Assembly (NCBI GenBank): GCA_037147175.1
Contig: JBAWVS010000017.1
Coordinates: forward strand, 1 to 47,123
Direction: 5' to 3'
Length of the DNA stretch: 47,123 bases
Source of the DNA: a bacterium
Lineage (GTDB): Bacteria > Cyanobacteriota > Vampirovibrionia > Gastranaerophilales > UBA9971
The notes under the pieces are model-generated. The model made no database searches and was not told where the DNA came from. It worked only from the letters and a program-made list of their open reading frames with translations. A program made the position numbers and the translations under genes. Of this stretch, positions 9,637-31,650 are shown one piece after another (positions within the stretch are counted from its first letter, which is position 1; each line of letters begins with the position of its first letter).

Positions 9637-11100
9637 TTAGCTGAATACTTTGCTGAAATGAATGTATAAAACAGAATTATCTAACGCGGCAACAAAGCAT
9701 TTTGGACGTTTTAACAAAGTTTCTATCAGGAGTTTAAACACATAAAATTTACCTTTTTCCAGATTCTTCATGATAAAGAGAATTTTGTAAAATGACGGTA
9801 CAATTCTTTTGTTTAAAGGAATTACTCTAGCCGGTTCATAATATTTTAAAAAGTTGTTTATTCTTTCAAAATAATATTTTGGAGAATAAGCTTTTTTAAC
9901 TAAATCGTTATACCCTTTAACTAAGATTTCTTTGTCCAGTTTGGGAATAAAATTAATCGTTGAATCCTGATTGATACCAGAAGAAGTTTTAACCAACCTT
10001 CCTTCTTCTTTTAGCCTTTTATAAAGCTTAGTTCCGGGCAAAGCCTGAAGTAAATCAATCATAGCTTTAGAAACTCCGGCTTCTTGAATGAAATTAAACT
10101 GGCTTTCAAATATAGTCTCATCATCAGTATCAAAACCTACTATAAAACCGCCTGTAACTTCCATTCCATGCTTATAAAATTTCCTTATAGAATCAACCAA
10201 ATTACGGTTTTGGTTTTGAAGCTTGTTACATTCCTGCAAGCTTGCTGTCGAAGGAGTTTCTATTCCTATAAAGACAAGAAAGAACCCTGCTTCGCTCATT
10301 AATTTTAACAATTCATCATCATCAGAGGCATTTATAGAGATTTCCGTAAAGAATGACTGTTTAAAGTCAACTTTCTTTCTCCACTCTATTATTTCTTTAA
10401 GCAACTCTTTTGTTTTATTTTTATCACCCAAAAAATTATCATCCACGAAGAAAATACTTCCGCGGAAACCGGAATCATGTATTGCCTGAAGCTCGTTCAA
10501 TATTTGTTCAGGACTTTTATTTCGCGGTATTCTTCCGTTAAGGTTTACTATATCGCAAAAATCACAGTCAAAAGGACAACCTCTGGAGAATTGCAGCGGC
10601 ATTATGTAATAATCAGAAGGGTTTATTAAGCTTAAATCGGGTTTTGGAGTGTTTTTAATGTCAGGTTTAATTTGTGAAGTGTAAATTCTTTTCAGTTCAC
10701 CTTTTTCAAGGTCTTCTAAAAACATCGGTATGGTAACTTCTCCTTCGTTAAGGATAAAGTGGTCGACATCGTCAAACTGCTCATGCAGAGAAGTAAATAA
10801 AGGGCCGCCTGCTATTGTTTTGACTCCGAGGTCTTTACATCTTTTTATAACGGCAATAGAAGTGCCTTTTTGGACAATCATTCCGCTTATGAAAGCAAAA
10901 TCTGCCCATAAAATATCTTCATCGGTTAATTTTGTTGTGTTCATATCAACAAGTCTTTTTTCAAACTCCTGAGGTAATAGAGCCGAGACGGTCATCAACC
11001 CGAGAGGCGGCAAATATGCCTTTTTCCCGAATAATTTTATTATATGAGTAAAACTCCAAAAGGAACCCGGACATTCGGGATATATCATTAAAATTTTCAT
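9637..11100 (-). CDS. B12-binding-type radical SAM protein with DUF4070-like C-terminus
   Basis: Order of parts: an N-terminal cobalamin-binding-type Rossmann domain (about 1-140, starting MKILMIYPECPGSFW), a radical SAM core with the cluster motif CPFDCDFC (C175, C179, C182), and a C-terminal region from about 380 (SPKYYFERINNFLKYY) resembling DUF4070. This architecture is shared with HpnP-type hopanoid C-2 methylases and related enzymes. The substrate cannot be told from sequence; methylation of an unactivated carbon in a lipid or small molecule is one possibility. The B12-binding domain lacks a DxHxxG motif, as in several relatives. It starts 60 bp after tRNA-Thr on the same strand with a weak RBS. 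Confidence 0.88.
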   Translation of the reverse strand: MKILMIYPECPGSFWSFTHIIKLFGKKAYLPPLGLMTVSALLPQEFEKRLVDMNTTKLTDEDILWADFAFISGMIVQKGTSIAVIKRCKDLGVKTIAGGPLFTSLHEQFDDVDHFILNEGEVTIPMFLEDLEKGELKRIYTSQIKPDIKNTPKPDLSLINPSDYYIMPLQFSRGCPFDCDFCDIVNLNGRIPRNKSPEQILNELQAIHDSGFRGSIFFVDDNFLGDKNKTKELLKEIIEWRKKVDFKQSFFTEISINASDDDELLKLMSEAGFFLVFIGIETPSTASLQECNKLQNQNRNLVDSIRKFYKHGMEVTGGFIVGFDTDDETIFESQFNFIQEAGVSKAMIDLLQALPGTKLYKRLKEEGRLVKTSSGINQDSTINFIPKLDKEILVKGYNDLVKKAYSPKYYFERINNFLKYYEPARVIPLNKRIVPSFYKILFIMKNLEKGKFYVFKLLIETLLKRPKCFVAALDNSVLYIHFSKVFS

Positions 11101-29160: not shown

Positions 29161-30588
29161 TTAAGAATAAACAAACGGAGGACCGCTTTTGATTTCTGAA
29201 AGTACGTTTTCTTTCAGTTTTTTAATTTCGTTTAAAGAAAGCGGCTGCTTGATTTTTTCCTTATAATCTTCCATTAAAGGCTGAATATAGCTGTTTTTCT
29301 TCCGATAAAAGTTATTAAGCTCTACCTGAACAAGCCTGTCTTGAAGATCAATTTCTGTTTTGGCGTTTGCTTTTTCTACCTGAGTTTCTTTAATTCCTTC
29401 TATGGCTTTTTCTCCCACGTACTCAAAGGCTGCCGAGGAACAAAGAAGTATTGCCAAATTCCTTGTTTGAGGAGATTTATTAATCATATACGTGTAAATA
29501 AAGGATGAAACGTGGCTTACAACCGCAGAAAAAATTGTTTTGCCGCTGCTTCCGTATACCTCGCGAGAGGCATCTTCAAATACTGAATTATTTGATTTTG
29601 CTTTATTACAGTCATTTACAAAAGATTGTTTTATTTCTGCTGTAGCACTAGAATTTTCCAGAGTTTTTTTCAAGTCTTGTTGGGAAATATTTTTCAAATC
29701 ATCACCCAACTTTTGTTGAATTTCACTTTTATAAGCTTCCAGATGTTGCGCCATTTTGCCAATATTTTTGAAAATAGATTTTGCAAACAATAAAGATAGC
29801 CCTATAGTTGCAACCCCTACGCCTGAATATAAAGCAATTTTGCCTAAATCATTTTTATTTTCATCTTTATTATTATTTTTATTTCCAAAAGCCGCTTGTT
29901 TTTTATCAGAATTTTCCTGATTTACTAAAAAATTGTCATAACTGTTTAATTCATTATTTTTTTGAGACATCAAACTTCTGATTATCTGGTTTTTTCCTGA
30001 GAAACTTTTTGTTTCTATATCAATAAGTTTTTCTTCTTTATCACGTTTTATATCTGCAAAATTTTTCTTAACCCAAATTTCTTTTACCCCGTCAACAACA
30101 TTTTTCATCATAAAACCTGTTGCGGAAGCTGCTAAAACTGCTGCGGCAGTTAGTAATGTTTTTGTAGAAGGATCATGAATAAAAGCATACAGAACTAATC
30201 TATTATCATTGTTTAATGTAACCATTCTTGGAACATCAGGTATTTTGACATCCGATAATAAATTATTTTTGTTGATTAAAGAATTTTTGAATAATTTCGC
30301 AGCTCCCGCACCAATACCAAGAATTAACAAAGGTGCTGCAATTATTGGAACTATCGGGTTGTTATACCATTTAGCGGAATTATTTTCTTTTTTCTCCAAC
30401 ATAGCCTTCGGCAAAGGTGTATCCTGCACCGGAGAATCCGCATAATATGTTTCGGGGTCTTTTATAAAAGTATTTACAACAACGCCTTCTTTTGTAATTT
30501 CTTCTTTAACTTTTTTTCTATTATTGGTATCAGTAGAATTACGGGGTTGCAGTGCAGAGAAATTATTTATTACAGAATTTTTATACAT
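29161..30588 (-). CDS. Unknown large membrane protein (475 aa)
   Basis: No family was recognised. Hydrophobic segments lie near residues 80-100 (PIVPIIAAPLLILGIGAGAA), 145-160, about 250-272 (ALYSGVGVATIGLSLLFAKS) and about 355-395, separated by charged helical stretches; an Asn/Lys linker sits near 230-245. The N-terminal 70 residues are polar. It seems built of two similar halves, each with a membrane segment followed by an acidic/basic helix (KEEKLIDIETKSF and KTEIDLQDRLVQVE). The start at 30588 overlaps the stop of the preceding gene by 8 bp in ATGTATAA, with GAGGAATTACTTA as RBS, so it is translationally coupled to it. The two probably work together. Confidence 0.65.
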   Translation of the reverse strand: MYKNSVINNFSALQPRNSTDTNNRKKVKEEITKEGVVVNTFIKDPETYYADSPVQDTPLPKAMLEKKENNSAKWYNNPIVPIIAAPLLILGIGAGAAKLFKNSLINKNNLLSDVKIPDVPRMVTLNNDNRLVLYAFIHDPSTKTLLTAAAVLAASATGFMMKNVVDGVKEIWVKKNFADIKRDKEEKLIDIETKSFSGKNQIIRSLMSQKNNELNSYDNFLVNQENSDKKQAAFGNKNNNKDENKNDLGKIALYSGVGVATIGLSLLFAKSIFKNIGKMAQHLEAYKSEIQQKLGDDLKNISQQDLKKTLENSSATAEIKQSFVNDCNKAKSNNSVFEDASREVYGSSGKTIFSAVVSHVSSFIYTYMINKSPQTRNLAILLCSSAAFEYVGEKAIEGIKETQVEKANAKTEIDLQDRLVQVELNNFYRKKNSYIQPLMEDYKEKIKQPLSLNEIKKLKENVLSEIKSGPPFVYS

Positions 30589-31300
30589 TAAGTAATTCCT
30601 CGTAAGTTTCTGCATTGTTTTTCTGATCTTCTAATTCTTCAAAAGAATTGTCAGTCGGTTCTACTATTCTGAAAAGTTTTTTCTTTAGCCTGTTTGCAAA
30701 AGCAGCTAAAAACTCTTTTACAGCCTTTTCTTTATCTTTCATATTAGAAATAAAAGTTTCCATAGCATTTTTAAAGTTTTCTGTTGCCTGTTTTAGTTTG
30801 TTCATAATTTGTTGGAGTTTTTCATTTAACAAACCTGCAAGTTTAGTTATATTTTGAAAAAGCTGTGTTTTTAATTCGGTAAAAATATTATTTATTGCCT
30901 GCATTGTTCGGGTTATGGTTTTTGCAAGAGGTGTTAAACCTGTTGAATTAAACAGTTTAACAAGATTATTATCGATAAAGTTATTTATTGTTTTAAAAAT
31001 ACTTGATTGCTCGATAAATTTTTTCATAGCAGACATGTTATCAAGTTTTTGATTGAATTCCTGTCTTTGTTTTGCAGCAAGCATTGCATTCCACGCAGGA
31101 AGCAAGTCAGCCCATGTCAGAAGCCCTAATTCTTTTGCGGTAGGCTTTGATTTTGCTGCCGAGCCTCCTCCGCCTCCGCCCATTCCAAGACATAGAGGAC
31201 ATGAACCGCCGGGATTTCCATGCGGACAGCAAACTCCCATCGTTTTTTGCTGAACAAGAATTTTAGGCGTATTATTTGTATTTAAAGCTTGTATTTTCAT
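30581..31300 (-). CDS. Unknown protein with a Cys/His-Gly motif and helical body (239 aa)
   Basis: The N-terminus MKIQALNTNNTPK is followed by CCPHGNPGGSCPLCLG and a run of Gly (residues 24-46). The spacing of Cys and His could bind zinc or another metal. Residues 60-220 are almost entirely helical with many Asn, Lys and Gln, like a long coiled coil or amphipathic bundle; there is no signal peptide. No function is assigned. CAAGAAAGAAAC precedes the ATG. It is coupled to the membrane protein downstream, and 180-300 bp upstream on the same strand lie a terminator hairpin and a cobalamin aptamer, so B12 could influence it only if the terminator is read through. Confidence 0.65.
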   Translation of the reverse strand: MKIQALNTNNTPKILVQQKTMGVCCPHGNPGGSCPLCLGMGGGGGGSAAKSKPTAKELGLLTWADLLPAWNAMLAAKQRQEFNQKLDNMSAMKKFIEQSSIFKTINNFIDNNLVKLFNSTGLTPLAKTITRTMQAINNIFTELKTQLFQNITKLAGLLNEKLQQIMNKLKQATENFKNAMETFISNMKDKEKAVKEFLAAFANRLKKKLFRIVEPTDNSFEELEDQKNNAETYEELLNV

Positions 31301-31326: not shown

Positions 31327-31399
31327 TAGATTGCTTCGTTATGCTCGCAATGACGATTTAGGCGATTTAGCAATTCGAGTTTTTCAGGCAAAATGACAA
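31327..31399. repeat. Partial dispersed repeat, GTCATTGCGAG type
   Basis: ATAGATTGCTTCGTTATGCTCGCAATGACGA is the right arm of the element at 9138-9264, followed by TTTAGCAATTCGAGT (the tail motif) and AAAATGACAAA. It lies in the 350-bp gap (31301-31650) that also holds the terminator and riboswitch. Confidence 0.6.
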
Positions 31400-31440
31400 A
31401 AAACATAGAAGAACGCTTTTAATTTAAAAGCGTTCTTCTA
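31398..31440 (-). terminator. Strong intrinsic terminator downstream of the cobalamin aptamer
   Basis: Perfect 17-bp arms (31406-31422 and 31424-31440, core GAACGCTTTTAA) followed on the minus strand by TGTTTTTTG. There is no T run on the plus strand, so it acts on minus-strand transcripts, that is on RNA coming through the riboswitch about 65 nt upstream. It may be the riboswitch expression platform or simply the end of a short RNA. Confidence 0.8.
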
Positions 31441-31502
31441 TAAAATTATAAATATGTAATTATCATCGAAATAATCCTCTAGTGCTCGCTATTAACATAT
31501 AA

Positions 31503-31622
31503 CAAAGAGGTATTCTGACTTGAAAGCATAAATTAAACAAAATGCCTTCTTTACAGTTGCGGCACAGTCCCGGATTTTAACCGGAGTTTCCCTATTTGTT
31601 GTGATAAATTTTATCATCAGCA
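31503..31622 (-). promoter_or_regulatory. Cobalamin riboswitch aptamer
   Basis: Read on the minus strand, the segment has the conserved blocks in order: AATAGGGAAACTCCGG, TTAAAATCCGGGACTGTGCC, GCAACTGTAAAGAAGGC (the B12-box core GCCGCAACTGTAA), a small GCAT/ATGC stem, then TCAAGTCAGAATACCTC. These are the hallmarks of cobalamin aptamers. The peripheral domain is short. It follows the YhcH-family gene stop by about 30 bp and precedes a strong terminator. AGAGG at 31506-31510 (plus) could pair with CCTCT at 31476-31480, offering an alternative fold. No B12 transport or synthesis gene is recognised downstream. Confidence 0.9.
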
Positions 31623-31650
31623 ATATTTGTTGTAAAGAGAATTTTGATGT

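Follow-up and report, generated by a model that had tools for sequence, protein, structure and literature searches.

How does a bacterium use a cobalamin riboswitch that is followed by no recognizable B12 gene? Such an element lies on the minus strand of the 47,123-nucleotide stretch of Gastranaerophilales DNA analyzed here in full (the window). The initial annotation left two readings side by side: either the genes that follow are a new B12-responsive pair, or the aptamer and its terminator make a short regulatory RNA.

An Infernal search with the Rfam cobalamin models (cmscan) returned a match to RF00174 that scored 40.1 bits against a gathering threshold of 31.5 (E 8e-7 for the window), which bears out the minus-strand aptamer of the initial annotation. 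This was the only RF00174 match in the genome (2.66 Mb), and the folded leader was 5.7 s.d. more stable than its dinucleotide shuffles (z -5.7). The element resembles members of RF00174 and of the AdoCbl-II family RF01689 (clan CL00101) in its above-gathering scores, conserved core boxes, L5–L13 complementarity, and 5' leader position; it departs from them in preceding a gene pair unrecognized by Pfam and NCBIfam and, in its own family, in acting (by inference) via a leader open reading frame (ORF) and a terminator. The features of the locus are collected in Table 1. The putative promoter overlaps the first 20 or so nucleotides of the Rfam match, which puts the probable transcript start near 31600; promoter-like sites in this AT-rich region are no more numerous than chance would provide.

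Table 1. Features of the riboswitch locus, in order of transcription (positions are those of the window)
Feature	Position	Strand	Basis or remark
Putative sigma-70 promoter: TTTACA 31636-31631, 17-nt spacer, TAAAAT 31613-31608	31608..31636	-	10/12 consensus
Cobalamin riboswitch aptamer (RF00174)	31488..31629	-	Rfam score; transcribed core probably from ~31600
P3-like closing helix, 5' strand AACAAATAGG	31591..31600	-	Sequence; pairs with CCTCTTTGTT at 31510-31501
L5 GUGC, complementary to L13	31562..31565	-	Complementarity covaries across relatives
P3-like closing helix, 3' strand CCTCTTTGTT	31501..31510	-	Sequence
L13 GCAC, kissing-loop partner, directly 5' of the Shine-Dalgarno sequence	31482..31485	-	Complementary to L5 GUGC
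Shine-Dalgarno sequence AGAGGA of leader ORF	31475..31480	-	Equivalent in all 6 f1 loci with a leader ORF
Leader ORF, MIITYL then stop	31446..31466	-	5-8-codon ORF at the same place, 6 loci, 3 genera
Intrinsic terminator: 18-pair stem 31442-31404, T6 31403-31398	31398..31442	-	Starts 3 nt past the leader-ORF stop
27-bp dispersed repeat GTCATTGCGAGCATAACGAAGCAATCT (GTCATTGCGAGCATARCGAAGCAATCT), between terminator and CPHG gene	31328..31354	-	Second copy 9264-9238, minus strand, 1 mismatch
CPHG gene, 239 aa	30581..31300	-	N-terminal C-P-H-G...C-P-x-C motif, Gly-rich linker, then helices; no predicted TM segment
Membrane-protein gene, 484 aa (476 aa from the ATG at 30591)	29161..30615	-	About 4 TM segments, internal duplication, C-terminal GPPFVYS

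Comparison among relatives lends further support to the fold. In a fixed-register test that ignores relatedness, L5 and L13 were fully paired at 46 of 80 distinct loci versus 14 under shuffling, and the two loops change jointly from locus to locus (CUGC/GCAG, GUGC/GCAU, GUGC/GCAC, and others). Because the shuffles ignore relatedness and L13 was located by a simple pattern, we regard this covariation as supporting rather than decisive. (A free-register version of the test, with 22 pairings observed and 21.2 expected by chance, had no power and was replaced by the fixed-register one.) On the strength of its sequence, the element is a cobalamin riboswitch; cobalamin binding and a change in expression remain to be demonstrated, as there are no in-line probing or reporter data. 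Our search of the literature and data turned up no account of cobalamin riboswitches from these bacteria and no expression or binding data for the switch or for the genes that follow it.

The next genes on the same strand encode, as had been annotated, a Cys/His-Gly protein (CPHG) and a membrane protein, and neither has a match above the curated Pfam or NCBIfam cut-offs. In the CPHG motif, C-P-H-G-x-P-x-G-x-C-P-x-C, residues C25, P26, H27, G28, C34, P35, and C37 are invariant in 29 sequences, and we infer from the motif that its C/H/C/C residues would form a zinc site. The membrane protein is internally duplicated (half-to-half alignments of five sequences scored 8 to 11 s.d. above shuffles), and its C-terminal GPP motif is invariant among its relatives. 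No FecCD (BtuC-type permease) domain or TonB plug was found in the pair by Pfam and NCBIfam searches, and the membrane protein had no significant match to importer families of the BtuM or ECF type in Pfam, NCBIfam, or PDB profiles. PDB sequence profiles likewise gave no significant match for either protein, only weak coiled-coil matches. Pfam matches of CPHG to apolipoprotein and other families fell under the curated cut-offs and reflect its helices. AlphaFold models of the two proteins were of low confidence (pLDDT 62.6 and 51.8) and were left out of the functional reading; a PDB structure search with the membrane-protein model, which yielded no matches at E <= 0.001 and only long coiled-coil proteins, was uninformative.

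Which genes follow the aptamer in related genomes? Scanning a genome collection with the membrane protein, we identified 307 places that encode relatives and kept the best 80. Most of these 80 are labeled Gastranaerophilales or Melainabacteria, and in 76 of them a CPHG ORF lies upstream. A strict B12-box double motif was present no more than 420 nt upstream at 69 of these 76 pair loci, and only once elsewhere in 1.54 Mb. Among further pair loci, a riboswitch was recognizable at 35 of 36 (four of the 35 by divergent or partial boxes). Rfam gathering thresholds were passed at 37 of the 42 pair loci tested, with two just below and three not reaching them; at one of these three (G005) the pair is present and the switch truly absent. 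The Rfam class varies with the family (f1, f2, and g15 are labels that the analysis tool gave to families and genera): f1 loci match RF00174, and those of f2, a large family, and of others match AdoCbl-II RF01689. The membrane gene was found in 53 of 60 relatives; a survey of 244 genomes from the phylum located it in 103, all of them members of the window's order. Thus, the pair that follows the aptamer recurs in related genomes, and the order-wide retention of riboswitch, CPHG gene, and membrane gene as a unit means that the genes after the switch are not there by accident. The proposal of a new B12-responsive pair is thereby strongly supported, and, as far as sequence comparison can tell, the riboswitch almost certainly controls the pair.

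The same comparison bears on the suggestion that the aptamer and terminator constitute a stand-alone short regulatory RNA, with the downstream genes there by coincidence. This could be argued for the window, in which a strong terminator lies 45 nt past the aptamer and the CPHG gene starts about 100 nt beyond the terminator, after a dispersed repeat. Across the order, however, the pair lies behind the switch, and the CPHG ribosome-binding site adjoins the switch in most relatives. In f2, the expression platform (UCCUCU...AGAGGAUUUUUUAAUG) is a hairpin that would sequester the ribosome-binding site of CPHG; this platform ends at the CPHG start codon. In a sister species of the same genus (G001, locus L047), moreover, a deletion has removed both leader ORF and terminator, leaving the Shine-Dalgarno sequence of the switch directly in front of the CPHG ATG, so that the switch is fused to the start of the gene. 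The short-RNA proposal is therefore without support, and we consider it very improbable.

Beyond the pair, a third small gene of about 150–190 aa commonly lies 3' of the membrane gene at f2 loci (L063, L065, L067, L070, L072, L076-L078, and similar ones), often with a conserved gene (starting MGMAASQARFLGLTAR) after it; the window has neither gene downstream of its pair.

We now turn from what the switch controls to how it might do so. The terminator described in the initial annotation was confirmed as a perfect stem with a T run, though it has 18 pairs rather than 17 and its distance from the aptamer, given there as about 65 nt, measured 45 nt; the repeat reported between it and the next genes is also present. 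By chance, 0.3 such terminators would be expected. A Shine-Dalgarno sequence, a 5–8-codon ORF, and a terminator occur in all six f1 loci in which a leader ORF is retained (from three genera, and related to one another), and the terminator stem begins between -2 and +8 nt relative to the leader-ORF stop codon. The leader-peptide sequences are not conserved among these loci, so it is translation itself, rather than the peptide, that would matter.

The window's version of this arrangement has peculiarities that could indicate that the switch is a relic in this species, disconnected from the pair by the insertion of the repeat and by the long, perfect terminator. Its terminator is longer and more stable than those of relatives (-21.9 versus -5 to -9.4 kcal/mol), the repeat sits between terminator and CPHG gene, and the CPHG gene has only a weak Shine-Dalgarno sequence. 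Against such decay, the aptamer score falls within the range of sister species and family members (38.7–51.6 bits), and P3, L5/L13, the Shine-Dalgarno sequence, and the leader ORF are all intact in the window. Loss of function is accordingly a very improbable explanation.

Known members of the cobalamin riboswitch class hide a Shine-Dalgarno sequence when B12 is bound. The deletion in G001 amounts to a natural experiment on the riboswitch. There, the Shine-Dalgarno sequence of the switch drives CPHG directly, which implies that B12 turns expression off if the switch hides that sequence; we hold this polarity to be very likely. If the sister species keep the polarity of G001, then translation of the leader must favor expression, that is, by antitermination, an inference that we regard as evenly balanced. 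Specifically, ligand binding would stabilize L5–L13/P13 and so hide the Shine-Dalgarno sequence just 3' of it. When B12 is low, a ribosome on the f1 leader ORF would disrupt the terminator and let transcription reach the pair; when B12 is high, the leader would go untranslated and transcription would stop at the terminator. The architecture is observed in the f1 loci, and the mechanism is inferred from it.

A short ORF behind a cobalamin aptamer has a precedent. In Mycobacterium tuberculosis, the ppe2 B12 OFF riboswitch masks the Shine-Dalgarno sequence of a short uORF that must be translated for the downstream gene to be expressed, and the uORF stop overlaps the start of that gene, allowing termination-reinitiation (PMC11260477). 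The six f1 loci share with it an ORF, led by a Shine-Dalgarno sequence, directly after the aptamer. Unlike in ppe2, however, the stop of the window's leader ORF (31446) does not overlap the CPHG start (31300): the two are separated by about 145 nt that include an intrinsic terminator, which makes termination-reinitiation unlikely and points instead to antitermination. If this is correct, the f1 platform would represent a mode of riboswitch control in which the ligand governs intrinsic termination only through the ribosome.

What, then, might the pair do? The remark that B12 supply matters here is consistent with the gene content of these genomes. NrdJ, the B12-dependent class II ribonucleotide reductase, scored above cut-off in 54 of 60 genomes, the window's among them; the activation domain of MetH, searched for as another B12 consumer, was absent from all 60. 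A B12-type radical SAM protein had also been reported in the window, and there is indeed a match at 10726-11016, but at 27.5 bits it remains below the PF02310 cut-off. With regard to supply, a strong BtuC-type permease match and a TonB plug occurred in the same six of the 60 genomes, and CobS in three. No CobS and no TonB receptor or plug was detected in the window's genome, which has only a marginal BtuC-type FecCD match (28.1 bits). Neither Btu nor CobS was found in 50 of 53 pair-bearing genomes as against two of seven lacking the pair (Fisher p 2e-4, relatedness uncorrected). In a second genome set, however, the five genomes lacking the pair also lacked BtuC. Over 117 genomes BtuC was present in four of 105 with the pair and three of 12 without it (p 0.02). 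As the second set fails to replicate it, the complementarity between BtuC and the pair is no more than suggestive. This survey covered BtuC, TonB, CobS, NrdJ, and MetH; ECF-type importers, other B12 enzymes, and adenosyltransferase lay outside it.

Dependence on a B12-dependent reductase in genomes that mostly lack detectable BtuB/BtuC and CobS is what leads us to suggest that the pair may help the cell acquire cobamides. Transport has no direct evidence behind it: in sequence, neither protein looks like any known transporter, and the structural models carry little weight. Four BtuC-bearing genomes, moreover, keep the pair. We therefore put this role at roughly, if not quite, an even chance, and favor it over a low-B12 response of unknown kind. 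Such a response, in which the pair, though under the control of the switch, serves a B12-independent bypass, stress, or envelope function, is possible, though we doubt it. The pair looks coiled-coil or helical and membrane-associated, unlike a recognizable transporter, BtuC-bearing genomes can keep it, and in relatives, genes read by eye as MetE-like and NrdDG-like follow aptamers of the same class. Yet no enzymatic motif was recognized in the pair, and most pair-bearing genomes, although they need B12, showed none of the other known routes to it that were tested.

Returning to cobamide acquisition, two known systems invite comparison. In a few members of the order (G015, G017, G018, and G020), BtuB–BtuFCD is preceded by a riboswitch of this class, but it is unrelated in sequence to the CPHG pair and is absent from most pair-bearing genomes tested. 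BtuM is a solitary B12 transporter with a cysteine as axial cobalt ligand (PMC8123684). The likeness to it is conceptual only, that of a B12 membrane protein with a key cysteine: the invariant Cys and His residues of the pair are on a separate, soluble-looking partner, there is no sequence match, and the pair is not a member of that family. The explanation as a whole, in which plentiful B12 turns off an order-specific operon of CPHG and a four-TM protein, by way of leader antitermination, for cobamide acquisition, is one toward which we lean slightly. That CPHG and its duplicated four-TM partner are an undescribed cobamide system that replaces BtuB–BtuFCD in most of the order, with f1 control through a leader-ORF ribosome that blocks the terminator, is a stronger statement, and on present evidence an unlikely one. 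Common inhabitants of animal guts and groundwater bacteria both belong to this order, in which the membrane gene is nearly universal; a B12 switch governs its locus almost without exception, and the gene carries no annotation. These bacteria need B12, and known B12 importers are mostly absent from them; with NrdJ common and no recognizable importer or late B12 synthesis gene among the genes tested, the pair is a concrete candidate for B12 acquisition.

Three genomes of genus g15 (G021, G041, and G046) keep both pair and switch, two of them without an NrdJ match and the third with only weak ones, so another B12 user should exist there; these genomes, like G005 with its pair but no switch, count against the explanation as a whole. 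Other riboswitch loci in the order (L053, L054, L056-L061, L066, and L074) precede BtuB/BtuCD-like, CbiM-like, CobT-like, MetE-like, and NrdDG-like genes, names assigned by eye from sequence starts and partly supported by BtuC and TonB-plug profile results; a wider B12 regulon thus exists in the order.

Finally, we note that membrane-protein relatives at L090, L110, L128, and L135 are on contigs labeled Clostridia, Heliobacteriaceae, and Alphaproteobacteria, which are probably mislabeled metagenome bins, and that an F-x-G motif (NVSFKG, NVNFTG, INFTGK) occurs near residue 235 of the membrane protein and in several neighboring, unrelated-looking proteins at L048 and L064.
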